Assembly (NCBI RefSeq): GCF_000020485.1
Contig: NC_011899.1
Coordinates: forward strand, 531,501 to 595,500
Reading direction: 5' to 3'
DNA from: Halothermothrix orenii H 168
GTDB lineage: Bacteria; Bacillota; Halanaerobiia; Halanaerobiales; Halothermotrichaceae
DNA: 64,000 bases
Shown: positions 29,802-38,274 of the stretch, piece after piece
Position numbering within the stretch: the first letter of the stretch is position 1
How the letters are laid out: each line of letters opens with the position of its first letter
Translations under genes and position numbers: made by a program
Notes under the pieces: model-generated
Databases searched by the model: none
Told to the model about the DNA's origin: nothing
Seen by the model: the letters and a program-made list of their open reading frames with translations, nothing else

Positions 29802-30578
29802 TTACTGAGGACGGCTTATAAACATCTGGGTAAATATATAACCATACTTATCACTTGGTTTTATACCAACCCCAACATGGGTGAAGTTGGGATTAAGGAT
29901 ATTTCTGCGGTGCCCGCTTGACCTCATAAGTGATTCATGGGCATCATCTACGGAGCGATTGGCAGCAATGTTTTCAGCAGCGTGTAAGTATTCAATCCCA
30001 AATCTGTCCATCATATCAAAGGGGCTGCCATAGGTTGGCGAATAATGGCTAAAGTAATTATTGTCAACCATGTCCTGGGATTTTATCCGGGCTACCTCTG
30101 TTAATTTCATATGGACTTCCAGGGGCTTAAGGTTATTCTTACGCCGTTCCTGGTTAATAAGATTTACCATTCGTTGTTCCATGGAAGTAAGGCTTTTTGC
30201 CGGGGCGACATCGTCTTTGGCTTCAGGAGCGGGTTCTGGTTCGACAATTCGCCGTTGTTTTTCCGGTTCACCGCCATCTCTGACAACAGGAGTGGCATCT
30301 GTGGTATTAATACACCCGACCTGGTTATTGTCGAGTCTGACTACATACCAGTTCCCCATTTCCCCCATAACCTTTACTATATCACCTTTATTCAGGGTAG
30401 CAATATTGGGGAAGGTGTTACCAGCCCCGGCTTTAACATTAACATTGTCATCTGTAACCCTGCAGTATTCAACTTCACCAATCTGAAATATTGAAGATTC
30501 CTGGGTAGGGGACTCATTGGCACAGGAGACAAGTAACACTGCCAGAATTAAAGGAATAAGGATTTTTAATTTTCTCAT
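29802..30578 (-). CDS. Lipoprotein with SH3b and CAP (SCP/YkwD-like) domains
   Basis: Exported protein of 258 aa. The signal ends in a lipobox (LLVSC), so it is membrane-anchored. Residues about 35-90 form a bacterial SH3 domain (VTDDNVNVKAGAGNTFPNIA), usually wall- or ligand-binding. After a proline-rich linker, residues 133-258 are a CAP domain (MVNLINQERRKNNLKPLEVH; SHYSPTYGSPFDMM; HAAENIAANRSVDDAHESLM; SSGHRRNILNPNFTHVGVGI). YkwD-like CAP proteins are common in spore formers; their activity is not settled. Confidence 0.9.
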   Translation of the reverse strand: MRKLKILIPLILAVLLVSCANESPTQESSIFQIGEVEYCRVTDDNVNVKAGAGNTFPNIATLNKGDIVKVMGEMGNWYVVRLDNNQVGCINTTDATPVVRDGGEPEKQRRIVEPEPAPEAKDDVAPAKSLTSMEQRMVNLINQERRKNNLKPLEVHMKLTEVARIKSQDMVDNNYFSHYSPTYGSPFDMMDRFGIEYLHAAENIAANRSVDDAHESLMRSSGHRRNILNPNFTHVGVGIKPSDKYGYIFTQMFISRPQ

Positions 30579-32163: not shown

Positions 32164-34125
32164 ATGGATTCAAAAAAATATAAAGTACTATTAACAGCAT
32201 TTATTGTAATCGGGATATTATTATTTTTACCTGCCTGCTCACCGGAGCCGGATACGGGGTATAAGTATTATGATATTTACGGATGGGTTACTGAATACAA
32301 TAGTGGTGATCCAATTAAAGATGCTTTTGTTTACATAGCAGGGCAGACAGCCTATACAGACGAAACAGGATATTATCATATATCTAATATACCTGAAGGA
32401 GTTCATACCTGGAGAGTAAGTGCTGATGGTTATCAGGGATATTCAGAAACAATTGAGGTTAGTAGTGATTTGAAGGTTAGTATTAAATTGTTCCCCATTG
32501 GTGATGGTAATGTTTCAGGAAAGGTTACTGTTAATAACAATACCGGATATCAGAGGGTAGATGTTAGTACAGCTTCTACCAGTAATAATGGTTCTGCCGT
32601 TATATTTAATAAGTCCAGTGATGGAATACAATATAAAGAAAACGAAATTCTGGTGAAATATAAAAATGAAGTATCTACCCTTTCTACAAATAGCCTGGAA
32701 AACAATAATGGAGTTCAAATCATGGGAACAAGAGAGCTTCCAGATGGGAAGGTTAAGCATTACAGGATACCTGAAGATAAGACAGTTAGTGAAATGGTAG
32801 ATTATTATAACAATCTCCCTGAAGTTGAATGGGCCCAGCCCAATTATATCTATCATATCAGTGCCATTCCTGATGATGAATACTATATTTATGAACAGCG
32901 GGGGCATATAATAACCAACCTGGAGGCAGCCTGGGATGTGGAAAAAGGTGATAACAGTGTAACAGTGGCTGTAGTCGATTCAGGGATTATTCCCGATCAC
33001 CCTGACCTTGCAGGCAATTTAGTGCCAGGTCATGATTTTGTCGATGATGATAATGATCCAACTGATAAAACCCCTGAATCTAATTCTGGTAGCCACGGTA
33101 CCCATGTAGCCGGTATTATTGGAGCCGTTACTAACAATGGTACCGGGGTAGCCGGGGTAAACTGGGATGTTAACATTTTGCCGGTCAGGGTTATGGGAAC
33201 AGATGGCTCAGGGTTTACAGATGTTATTGCAGATGGAATAAGGTATGCTGTGAATAATAATGTTGATATAATTAATCTAAGTTTGGGTGTAGATCCGTCA
33301 AGACTTGAAAACGGAAGTGACCCATATATGGATGATGCAATTAATTATGCAGTAAATAACGGGGTTATTGTAATAGCAGCAGCCGGCAATGGGGGAAGTG
33401 ATAGCATTGGAGATAGTTATGTGGATTACCCGGCAAACATGGATAGTACAATTGCTGTAGGGGCTGTAGATTTTAATAAAGATATTGCTAGTTTTTCGAA
33501 CTATGGACAGAATCTGGACCTGGTTGCTCCTGGTGTTGGTATATACAGTACCTGGGGATACTATGATGGGTATAATTATGAGACTATATCTGATTATTAT
33601 AATATGAGTGGAACATCAATGGCAACCCCCTATGTTAGTGGAATAGCAGCTCTTTTACTCGCCAATGGTGTTCCTTCATATGAAGTAAGGAATCGTTTAA
33701 CCTCTACAGCTGTTGACCTTGGGGGTACGGGATGGGATCAGTATTATGGATATGGGTTGGTTGACGCCTATGGTGCCCTGCTTGGTAAAAAGTTATCAAA
33801 GCCATATGTAATGGCCGCAGAATTTGATGAAACTACAAATACAGTTTACCCCAGGAGTGAGATTGTTCAGGTAAATGATGATGGAACCTATTCTTTACAG
33901 AATGTAACACCGGGGGAATGGTATATAATTGCCTACCGGGATGTTGATGATAATGGTTATATAGATGCTGGAGATTACTATGGTGAAACCAGTAATACTT
34001 ATTCTATTAATACAGATACAAGTTTAAAAGATATAAATGTTAATATGTATTATGTGACTGGATACAATACTTCAACAAGTTTAAAAATTAACGGGATTGC
34101 AGAAATTGAAGAGGTAAATAATTAA
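32164..34125 (+). CDS. Subtilisin-like serine protease, lipoprotein (S8 family)
   Basis: Exported protease of 653 aa. A lipoprotein signal ends at Cys25 (LPAC). Residues about 36-110 are a carboxypeptidase-regulatory-like beta domain and 158-232 look like a fervidolysin-type propeptide. The catalytic triad is complete: Asp272 (VVDSGI), His311 (SHGTHVAGI) and Ser485 (SGTSMATP), with oxyanion Asn409 (AAAGNG). The C-terminal part (about 545-653) has another beta-rich domain with an EF-hand-like DVDDNGYID loop. The next gene encodes a BsuPI-like inhibitor domain. Substrate unknown; probably acts at the cell surface or periplasm. Confidence 0.94.
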   Translation: MDSKKYKVLLTAFIVIGILLFLPACSPEPDTGYKYYDIYGWVTEYNSGDPIKDAFVYIAGQTAYTDETGYYHISNIPEGVHTWRVSADGYQGYSETIEVSSDLKVSIKLFPIGDGNVSGKVTVNNNTGYQRVDVSTASTSNNGSAVIFNKSSDGIQYKENEILVKYKNEVSTLSTNSLENNNGVQIMGTRELPDGKVKHYRIPEDKTVSEMVDYYNNLPEVEWAQPNYIYHISAIPDDEYYIYEQRGHIITNLEAAWDVEKGDNSVTVAVVDSGIIPDHPDLAGNLVPGHDFVDDDNDPTDKTPESNSGSHGTHVAGIIGAVTNNGTGVAGVNWDVNILPVRVMGTDGSGFTDVIADGIRYAVNNNVDIINLSLGVDPSRLENGSDPYMDDAINYAVNNGVIVIAAAGNGGSDSIGDSYVDYPANMDSTIAVGAVDFNKDIASFSNYGQNLDLVAPGVGIYSTWGYYDGYNYETISDYYNMSGTSMATPYVSGIAALLLANGVPSYEVRNRLTSTAVDLGGTGWDQYYGYGLVDAYGALLGKKLSKPYVMAAEFDETTNTVYPRSEIVQVNDDGTYSLQNVTPGEWYIIAYRDVDDNGYIDAGDYYGETSNTYSINTDTSLKDINVNMYYVTGYNTSTSLKINGIAEIEEVNN

Positions 34126-34188
34126 TAATAAATCCAGGGTAATTAATAAGACATAAATCATTAAAACCATTAAGAAAGGAAGGGTATT

Positions 34189-34962
34189 ATGAAAAAAAGG
34201 TTTATCAATATATTGGTATTATCACTGGTGCTAGTAGTACTGGCCGGGGGTACTGCCCTGGCAGATATAAATATTGATGGGGACAATGTGGAATTTGATA
34301 TTTCCCCAGATAGATTGACCGAGGATAGCCTGGTACCCTTAGACCAGTTTAAAGATATGGTACCAATGGAAATTGTGGAAATGGATAATGGGGATAGATT
34401 AATTTATTTTGAAGGGGATTATTTTATTATAGAGATTGGTAAGGTAGAGGTTGAAACAAACCGGGGTGTCAGGTATCTGGATACAGAACCTATATATATA
34501 AATGGCCACACTCTTGTACCAGTTGAGTTTATAACAGATTTTCTGGGCATTGATATTGAGGATTTTGGAGATCTTCAGCCCCTCCCACCAGTTAAAATCG
34601 GGAATAGCTTAAAGGCCAGGTTGATTGTTGGAAAACAGGTTTATAGTAGGAATCAAAGTATTAGAGTGTATATTTTACTAGAAAATGAAGGAAAACACAG
34701 AGAGGTATTACAGTTCACATCCGGTAAAAAATATGATGTGTATGTTAAGGATAAATTTGATAGGATTGTCCAGAAGTGGTCTGACAATAAGATGTTTGCC
34801 CAGATTATGCAGGAATTAGTCCTTGAACCTGAAGAGAGTGTTTTATATGAACTTAAGCTTAAGTTCAGGGGTTTGTCCGAAGGGACATATTACCTCCAGG
34901 GGGTTATTGAGAGTAAAGATAATAAAGTATATACTGATGAGACCAGAATTATTTTAAAATAA
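34189..34962 (+). CDS. Secreted protein with CuAO-N-like and BsuPI inhibitor-like domains
   Basis: Exported protein of 257 aa with a signal peptide (cleavage after about residue 24, ALA). Residues about 27-125 resemble the copper amine oxidase N-terminal repeat often found on surface proteins (YINGHTLVPVEFITDFLGID). Residues 140-257 resemble the BsuPI intracellular proteinase inhibitor domain (VLQFTSGKKYDVYVKDKFDR; VQKWSDNKMFAQ; GLSEGTYYLQGV). It begins 63 bases after the subtilase gene, so it may inhibit or modulate that protease. This pairing is inference; BsuPI-like domains also occur away from proteases. Confidence 0.75.
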   Translation: MKKRFINILVLSLVLVVLAGGTALADINIDGDNVEFDISPDRLTEDSLVPLDQFKDMVPMEIVEMDNGDRLIYFEGDYFIIEIGKVEVETNRGVRYLDTEPIYINGHTLVPVEFITDFLGIDIEDFGDLQPLPPVKIGNSLKARLIVGKQVYSRNQSIRVYILLENEGKHREVLQFTSGKKYDVYVKDKFDRIVQKWSDNKMFAQIMQELVLEPEESVLYELKLKFRGLSEGTYYLQGVIESKDNKVYTDETRIILK

Positions 34963-35064: not shown

Positions 35065-35211
35065 CCATCGGGCTTCCTTTGAGACAAATTATGTAGATGG
35101 TCACCGACACTATATTACCGGTTTTGTGGTACCCACCCGTATGAGGAAAAGGAGATAATCCTTTAAATAAACTGATAAGCTTTTTAAATATCAACGGACA
35201 GCTTCAGGGCT
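35065..35211 (+). other. Possible structured leader before the MATE gene
   Basis: In the 442 bases without a gene before the MATE exporter, CATCGGG (35065-35071) can pair with CCCGTATG (35137-35144, one bulged T) and enclose an ACCG/CGGT helix. A GACAGC/GCTGTC hairpin follows at about 35197-35214. I could not match this to a known riboswitch class; the guanidine-I motifs often found before such exporters are absent. Structure may be chance. Confidence 0.25.
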
Positions 35212-35404
35212 GTCAATTTGTAATAATATAACGTTATAAAATAGACTTAAATTATTTTATGATTAAAAAATTGAGTTAACAACTATATTTAGGTATAATA
35301 AACCACAGAGTGGTTAAATAAAAACTAAGATATAATATGGTAATGGAAACATACCAGTAACATATATGATAAAATAATTAAACCAGGATGGGAGATGAAT
35401 ATGA

Positions 35405-37641: not shown

Positions 37642-38274
37642 TTAGACAACAAGTTCATAAATTCTATCAATTACAGTAATTACTTCCAGTGGAACATTAC
37701 CGTCAACCAGCCCCAGTATATAAGATGTATAATAAAAACCGGGCTGTAAAACCAGGTTGCGGTTTCTAACAACCCTCTGGTTAGTTTGAGCATTAAATAT
37801 ACTTAAAGTATAAGTTCCGGGGTCCAGGGGAACATAACGGGTTATATCCTGATAACTAATGTTTCTTGCCAGGATTCTATTATCTATACGGGCATTAACA
37901 GCTGGGGCATTAGGTGACAGGTGGACAACTCTGAGATAAGTTGTATCCTGGCGTGGTCGTGAGTTCGTGTCAGGTATTACTAACAGGTCAAAATTTTCTC
38001 CGACCTGCCCAGTGGCAGCAACGGTTGAAATAGACCCGGGTGGTACATATATACGTTCTCGATAAACAGGGTTTCGCCTTGAACCAGCTGGATAGACTAT
38101 CACATTATATTGTCCGGGTCTAACCCTTATATAACTGGTTAAATTCCTGTAGCTTAAATTAGAAGCAATCTTGATATTATCGGCATATACATCAACAGCC
38201 GGAGCTCCCGGTGAAGCGTGTAAAACCCTTATATAGCTCTGATTTCTGAAAAAGGGAAAGTCCAATTGTTTCAC
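37642..38274 (-). CDS. Protein with two DUF4397 repeats
   Basis: Protein of 210 aa made of two homologous halves. Each contains the DUF4397 core: YIRVLHASPGAPAVDVYADN in the first and YLRVVHLSPNAPAVNARIDN in the second, followed by PGQYNVIVY or PGTYTLSIF. DUF4397 is a beta-sandwich often seen in surface proteins. No signal peptide is visible, so secretion would be non-classical or it is internal, perhaps spore-associated. Function unknown. Confidence 0.82.
   Translation of the reverse strand: MKQLDFPFFRNQSYIRVLHASPGAPAVDVYADNIKIASNLSYRNLTSYIRVRPGQYNVIVYPAGSRRNPVYRERIYVPPGSISTVAATGQVGENFDLLVIPDTNSRPRQDTTYLRVVHLSPNAPAVNARIDNRILARNISYQDITRYVPLDPGTYTLSIFNAQTNQRVVRNRNLVLQPGFYYTSYILGLVDGNVPLEVITVIDRIYELVV

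Follow-up and report, generated by a model that had tools for sequence, protein, structure and literature searches.

The gene for an S8 subtilase of Halothermothrix orenii H 168 is directly followed, on the same strand, by a gene for a protein with a BsuPI domain, and the question raised by this locus is whether the two products form a protease-inhibitor pair that works outside the cytoplasm. The window analyzed was a stretch of 64,000 nucleotides (NC_011899.1, positions 531,501 to 595,500, forward strand), to which the coordinates below refer. Both genes were found as open reading frames where a preliminary description of the window had placed them, and the following features were recognized in and around them:

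32164-34125, + strand: S8 subtilase gene, 653 aa, probable lipoprotein (ORF call, Pfam, comparison with solved structures)
32236-32238, + strand: Cys25 of a lipobox-like LPAC, with a non-canonical Pro at -2 (sequence, paired homologues)
32275-32484, + strand: CarboxypepD_reg-like domain, residues 38-107 (Pfam CarbopepD_reg_2, E 4.2e-11)
32611-32844, + strand: fervidolysin-type prodomain, residues 150-227 (PF22148 Fervidolysin_NPro-like, E 4.8e-10)
32953-33756, + strand: S8 catalytic domain, residues 264-531 (Pfam Peptidase_S8, E 2.8e-65)
32977-32979, 33094-33096 and 33616-33618, + strand: catalytic triad D272, H311 and S485 (alignment)
33388-33390, + strand: oxyanion N409 (alignment)
33781-34122, + strand: C-terminal region with the RDVDDNGYIDAGDYYG motif (GDYYG) (alignment, comparison of C-termini)
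34126-34188, + strand: 63-bp spacer with a ribosome-binding-like GGAAGG (sequence, terminator scan)
34189-34962, + strand: BsuPI-domain gene, 257 aa (ORF call, Pfam)
34189-34263, + strand: signal peptide with a hydrophobic core (residues 8-25) and an ALA site assigned by eye (sequence)
34273-34560, + strand: Cu_amine_oxidN1-like domain, residues 29-124 (Pfam, E 1.2e-7)
34624-34917, + strand: BsuPI domain, residues 146-243 (PF12690, E 4.2e-27; fold comparison)
34777-34806, + strand: WSDNKMFAQI, aligned with the edge of IPI for which insertion into the protease cleft has been proposed (alignment)
35197-35214, + strand: weak terminator-like hairpin 3' of the pair (4 such sites in the region, against 2.1 expected in shuffled sequences)

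Between the S8 and BsuPI genes the scan detected no site resembling a terminator. Two other genes of the window, both on the - strand, encode a CAP-domain protein that also has SH3_3 and an export-like stretch at its N-terminus (29802-30578) and a DUF4397 protein with two matched stretches (37642-38274, E 1.1e-50).

By its sequence the upstream protein is a member of Peptidase S8, and proteolytic activity is predicted. The PF00082 profile scored 220.9 bits (curated cut-off 21.8), the nearest solved chains to the catalytic domain in sequence were AK.1 protease (1.8e-59) and thermitase (8.3e-54), and the model superposed on thermitase with Z 44.5 and rmsd 1.3 over 271 residues, which indicates a subtilisin fold. 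The intact triad of the preliminary description was confirmed, and N409 was added to it; these residues were kept in 20 of the 21 S8 proteins found paired with BsuPI, the exception, L046, being cut there by a contig end. The called S8 frames of L040 and L048 also lacked a normal N-terminus. The C-terminal region gave a weak DUF2141 match (Pfam, E 0.054), and a motif like its GDYYG was aligned in several paired S8 proteins of the distant family f58. Two other identities were considered and rejected: mycosin of type VII secretion (TIGR03921), the best NCBIfam match at 231.8 bits, fell below its equivalog cut-off of 278.75, and the anti-phage S8 peptidase IteS also scored below its cut-off.

A lipobox had been claimed for this protease, but its LPAC fails the strict pattern. 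Among the eight paired S8 proteins of the order Halanaerobiales with a complete N-terminus, the window included, five carried a strict lipobox (LSAC, LTAC, LTGC, LVGC and LTGC), the failures being the window LPAC, the IPAC of L039 and L042. All ten paired S8 proteins outside the order carried one, although in L079 (residue 183), L087 (residue 202) and L083 (residue 80) this holds only if the called start lies too far upstream. Lipidation of the window subtilase is thus likely by homology. H. orenii possesses an outer membrane, according to the portion of PMC2626281 used here, and a "surface" location may therefore mean a periplasmic one.

For the second gene a signal peptide had been described, together with a domain like the Bacillus intracellular protease inhibitor joined to a CuAO-N-like domain, and each of these parts was recovered. 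The PF12690 profile scored 94.5 bits (curated cut-off 22.9), and the BsuPI fold was present in the protein model (mean pLDDT 85.5, pTM 0.51), whose best structural match was B. subtilis IPI, 3isy (Z 15.0, rmsd 2.5, 114 residues, 22% identity; Foldseek E 1.1e-8, TMt 0.80). The next nearest folds were those of Spo0M (Z 12.4) and RbmA (Z 12.0). The IPI edge matching WSDNKMFAQI corresponds, by our own count, to chain residues 62-68, EKMFTQA; its centre reads K-M-F-A-Q in the window, with Ala in place of the conserved Thr. The signal-peptide core departs from the cytoplasmic location expected of the IPI type, and such a core was found in 10 of the 11 paired BsuPI proteins of the order, the exception, L044, having escaped the pattern. 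The partner in families f58, f109 and f110 is 157-234 aa as called and consists of an export or membrane segment and BsuPI with little else (Pfam on 3 of 10). In all eight f58 pairs the S8 and BsuPI proteins alike carry a lipobox, which for some of them presupposes that the start was called too far upstream; the BsuPI protein of L088 has one and that of L087 does not. A single 396-residue protein with three BsuPI domains was also recorded (L059:5942-7132, G009:C26).

The survey of S8-BsuPI neighbors bore out the pairing. Profile searches with PF12690 and PF00082 in 38 genomes of the order, followed by comparison of coordinates, detected BsuPI in 29 (41 domain matches, counted as 39 genes) and S8 in 35. 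In 11 of the 38, belonging to four families, S8 immediately preceded BsuPI in the same orientation, with gaps of 2-63 bp between the ORF calls. With genes treated as independent, about 0.07 BsuPI genes were expected to have a co-directional S8 gene in the 3 kb upstream, against the 11 seen, and adjacency by chance was ruled out. Of 299 genomes sampled evenly across the phylum, 96 carried BsuPI, five of them in the order; the other 91 were searched for S8, with matches taken down to E of about 5e-45, and at least ten were paired (eight in f58, one each in f109 and f110). Six of these ten pairs overlap by 4 bp and one by 17 bp, and the remaining gaps are 3, 30 and 42 bp. In all 21 pairs found, from 21 genomes and seven families, S8 was upstream on the same strand. 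Three near misses were left out of the count: G029, whose S8 lies 2.5 kb downstream of BsuPI, and G114 and G105, with distances of about 5.6 kb and about 8.5 kb, respectively. Hence, the two genes form an adjacent, co-directional and conserved pair.

Two further results speak for a dedicated pair. In the reverse control, BsuPI was absent from all 80 loci picked by S8 similarity to the paired S8 proteins (DNA up to 4 kb on each side), and the count for any other flanking gene family did not exceed 7 of the 21 paired loci. Within the order, 28 of the 39 BsuPI genes had no adjoining S8, some of them lying near contig ends, and 16 of the 91 BsuPI-bearing genomes outside it had no S8 match among the matches listed; BsuPI therefore has other uses, which weighs against the inhibitor reading. 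The H. orenii genome itself (one contig, 2,578,146 bases) contains four S8 and two BsuPI genes, of which only those of the window adjoin; the second BsuPI gene, an open frame of 246 residues, had no S8 in the surrounding 13 kb.

These observations contradict a published statement. In the sections of Rigden 2013 (PMC3901451) drawn on here, no complete genome was said to have BsuPI and subtilisin genes close together. The same sections report signal peptides on many BsuPI proteins and a possible one, and hence maybe a secreted form, for B. subtilis IPI, and Cu-amine-oxidase N1 stands among the domains joined to BsuPI in the legend of figure 4. Since signal peptides are so frequent, possibly even on B. 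subtilis IPI, export is common in the BsuPI family. The preliminary description had seen in the locus a protease-inhibitor pair moved outside the cell. The exported partners, the BsuPI fold and the conserved pairing speak for an exported pair; the move as a new step, implying an intracellular ancestor, has to be given up, because both BsuPI export and the CuAO-N1 partner were already in those sections of PMC3901451. What is new is the conserved S8-BsuPI gene pair; BsuPI export and the joining to CuAO-N were known. No earlier report of the pairing was found in the literature searched, from which subscription journals were mostly absent; the passages of PMC3403918 that were considered do not deal with BsuPI.

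A partnership between the two proteins is well supported, because gene order is conserved, spacing is tight and export signals are present on both. As to its nature, we favor, with a probability of roughly one half, an operon of an envelope protease and a dedicated BsuPI partner that acts as a reversible, cleft-blocking inhibitor. The two genes would be co-transcribed; the subtilase would be exported, lose its prodomain on maturation and probably be held by a lipid anchor. The co-expressed BsuPI protein, exported as well, would meet the protease in the same compartment, where the edge of its Ig fold would reversibly plug the cleft, and the protease would thereby be kept in check within the double-membrane envelope.

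Inhibition is the most likely role of the partner by analogy with IPI, given the Ki of IPI on Isp1 and the fold and edge that the two proteins have in common. In the sections of PMC3901451 used, that Ki is cited as about 1e-9 M, IPI is cited as inhibiting several subtilisin homologues in assays, and a docked model places its edge inside the protease cleft. The same source questions whether IPI is an inhibitor, leaves the matter unsettled and records that MEROPS removed the BsuPI family. The presence of a prodomain of its own in the window S8 protein also tells against the inhibitor. A model of the joined pair, with the S8 catalytic part and BsuPI in one read-through chain, was uninformative on contact (pTM 0.66, linker disordered); the alignment behind it had put the CuAO halves from five BsuPI sequences, and shorter stretches of others, in the wrong part.

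The edge motif gave a mixed answer when the 21 paired BsuPI domains were compared with 34 unpaired ones. W197 and K201 of the edge were somewhat better conserved in the paired copies (0.86 versus 0.74 and 0.81 versus 0.62, respectively) and its centre was less so (F203 0.57 versus 0.88; column 204 0.29 versus 0.62; column 206 0.33 versus 0.71), so that the comparison, as evidence for inhibition from sequence, is against it at the centre; tuned inhibitors, too, would be compatible with variation at contact residues. The variable centre also speaks for a partner that binds without inhibiting and that, as an Ig-type adaptor, a folding helper or a tether, would position the protease or bring it substrates. 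This is a possibility of clearly lower standing, to which the resemblance to Spo0M and RbmA and the fusion of BsuPI to CuAO-N in the order lend some weight, and binding without inhibition is itself raised for BsuPI in PMC3901451. Against it stand the IPI assays cited there and the partners of f58, f109 and f110, which have hardly more than the export or membrane segment and BsuPI.

A third explanation makes the BsuPI protein a substrate of the adjoining protease, which would release or activate it by cleavage. A hint in this direction comes from PMC3901451, in whose relevant passage casein "repressed" the inhibition of Isp2 and Isp3, suggesting competing substrates. The aligned BsuPI proteins, however, have no conserved cleavage site or activation segment visible by eye, and we regard this explanation as improbable.

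The history of the pairing was followed on two trees. Removal of short fragments left 55 domains for the BsuPI tree, in which six loci (L089-L094) represented the unpaired ones from outside the order; the paired label changed eight times in the best tree, and at least four changes were forced by well-supported branches. The S8 tree comprised 69 domains, namely most of the best 30 loci of the order, other loci and 19 of the 80 S8-similarity loci; left out were seven loci that duplicated paired ones, L196, which dropped out at the profile step, and L099 (fragments). On it the paired label changed seven times, at least two of these forced, and all 21 paired sequences fell within one subfamily of 46 (SH-aLRT 90). 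As read from these sampled trees, pairing is clustered but does not form a single clade; the pair may have been gained several times, or it may be old and have been lost many times, and both histories fit. That the two genes merely share regulation, or adjoin by vertical inheritance, with no physical interaction of their products is hardly probable: pairs do cluster in relatives, eight of the ten outside the order in one family, and on both trees, but paired BsuPI domains fall in several lineages of the sampled tree, with the label changes counted above, and always in the same gene order.

Additionally, the pair was considered in the context of the double-membrane envelope. LptF/G, a marker of that envelope, was found throughout the order (38 of 38 genomes) and in each of the ten paired genomes from elsewhere, and these ten, which were searched for Omp85 as well, all had it. 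Among the unpaired BsuPI genomes outside the order, LptF/G was above the cut-off in 26 of 81 (25/79 and 1/2). With kinship ignored, the difference between paired and unpaired gave a Fisher p of 4e-5 by genome and of 0.037 by family (3/3 versus 11/37). Coordinates, edges and lptF/G were analyzed together in the order with the best 73 of 103 S8 matches, and among these an S8 gene lay within 5 kb of a long lptF/G gene in 14 of the 19 genomes that possess the latter, divergently in eight and co-directionally in six. BsuPI was in the cluster at five of the six co-directional loci, in three of them directly between S8 and lptF/G. The window pair is not at an lptF/G locus; a different H. orenii S8 gene is. 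In diderm Firmicutes the S8-BsuPI pair might thus be a protease and cognate-inhibitor module that belongs to the outer-membrane envelope and is linked with lipopolysaccharide transport, in which S8 would act on outer-membrane or periplasmic clients and BsuPI would set its activity; we offer this wider role as tentative.

The long gene of H. orenii (L008:923-4045, minus strand, an open frame of more than 1000 aa) belongs to a set of similar long genes in 19 of the 38 genomes, and S8 genes near members of this set were recorded at loci L004, L179, L192, L199, L040, L047, L048, L041 and L042. Its product shows LptF/G at residues of about 1-360, a junction resembling a signal peptide (SPASA|GSL, by eye) and about 650 LptD-looking residues. 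The C-terminal parts matched LptD_N in two of four proteins (E 0.0079 and 0.071), the other two being without a match, and LptA TIGR03002 in one of two (4e-4); hhalign against E. coli LptD gave a probability of 3.6%, and no match was found in the PDB. The gene is a weak candidate for an LptF/G-LptD fusion, and no clear LptD/E had been found in this order in the part of PMC5007114 used. Other arrangements were seen at G186:C1:2552473-2554056, where lptF/G and an unpaired BsuPI gene converge, their domain matches being about 235 bp apart; at L068:4809-5936 (G035:C107), where a fragment of the second G035 BsuPI gene lies just 5' of lptF/G with no S8 detected at the locus; and at L139:1784-5053, an Elusimicrobia contig with an S8 frame directly after two LptF/G-like frames.

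Whether BsuPI proteins inhibit proteases at all is in dispute: MEROPS removed the family and, with no gene reported close to a subtilisin gene, no natural pair had been at hand until now. H. orenii, whose genome has been complete since 2009, is a counterexample to the published statement, and at least 20 further draft genomes carry the pair, several with overlapping frames. A doubtful inhibitor family thereby becomes a set of natural cognate pairs for direct testing of binding and inhibition, and the association with double membranes and lptF/G suggests that the pair serves in the outer membrane of Firmicutes, which has been little studied.

Among known systems, AprA-AprI of Pseudomonas likewise places the gene of an exported protease beside that of a small envelope (periplasmic) inhibitor; the likeness to the window pair is a functional analogy only, as AprA is a metalloprotease and the inhibitor fold is unrelated. 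The catalytic domain of the window protease resembles those of thermitase and AK.1-like proteases, and its prodomain is of the fervidolysin type. Unlike thermitase and AK.1, it adds an N-terminal CarboxypepD_reg domain, a probable lipid anchor, the C-terminal GDYYG region and a BsuPI neighbor. The BsuPI protein has the same domains as those with a signal peptide and Cu-amine-oxidase N1 in the sections of Rigden 2013 used here, but is paired with S8. With B. subtilis IPI (PF12690, 3isy) it shares the fold, the W/Y-S-x-x-K-M-F-x-Q edge and the S8 class of the partner. Unlike IPI and the intracellular subtilisin Isp1, both proteins encoded here carry export signals and their genes adjoin.
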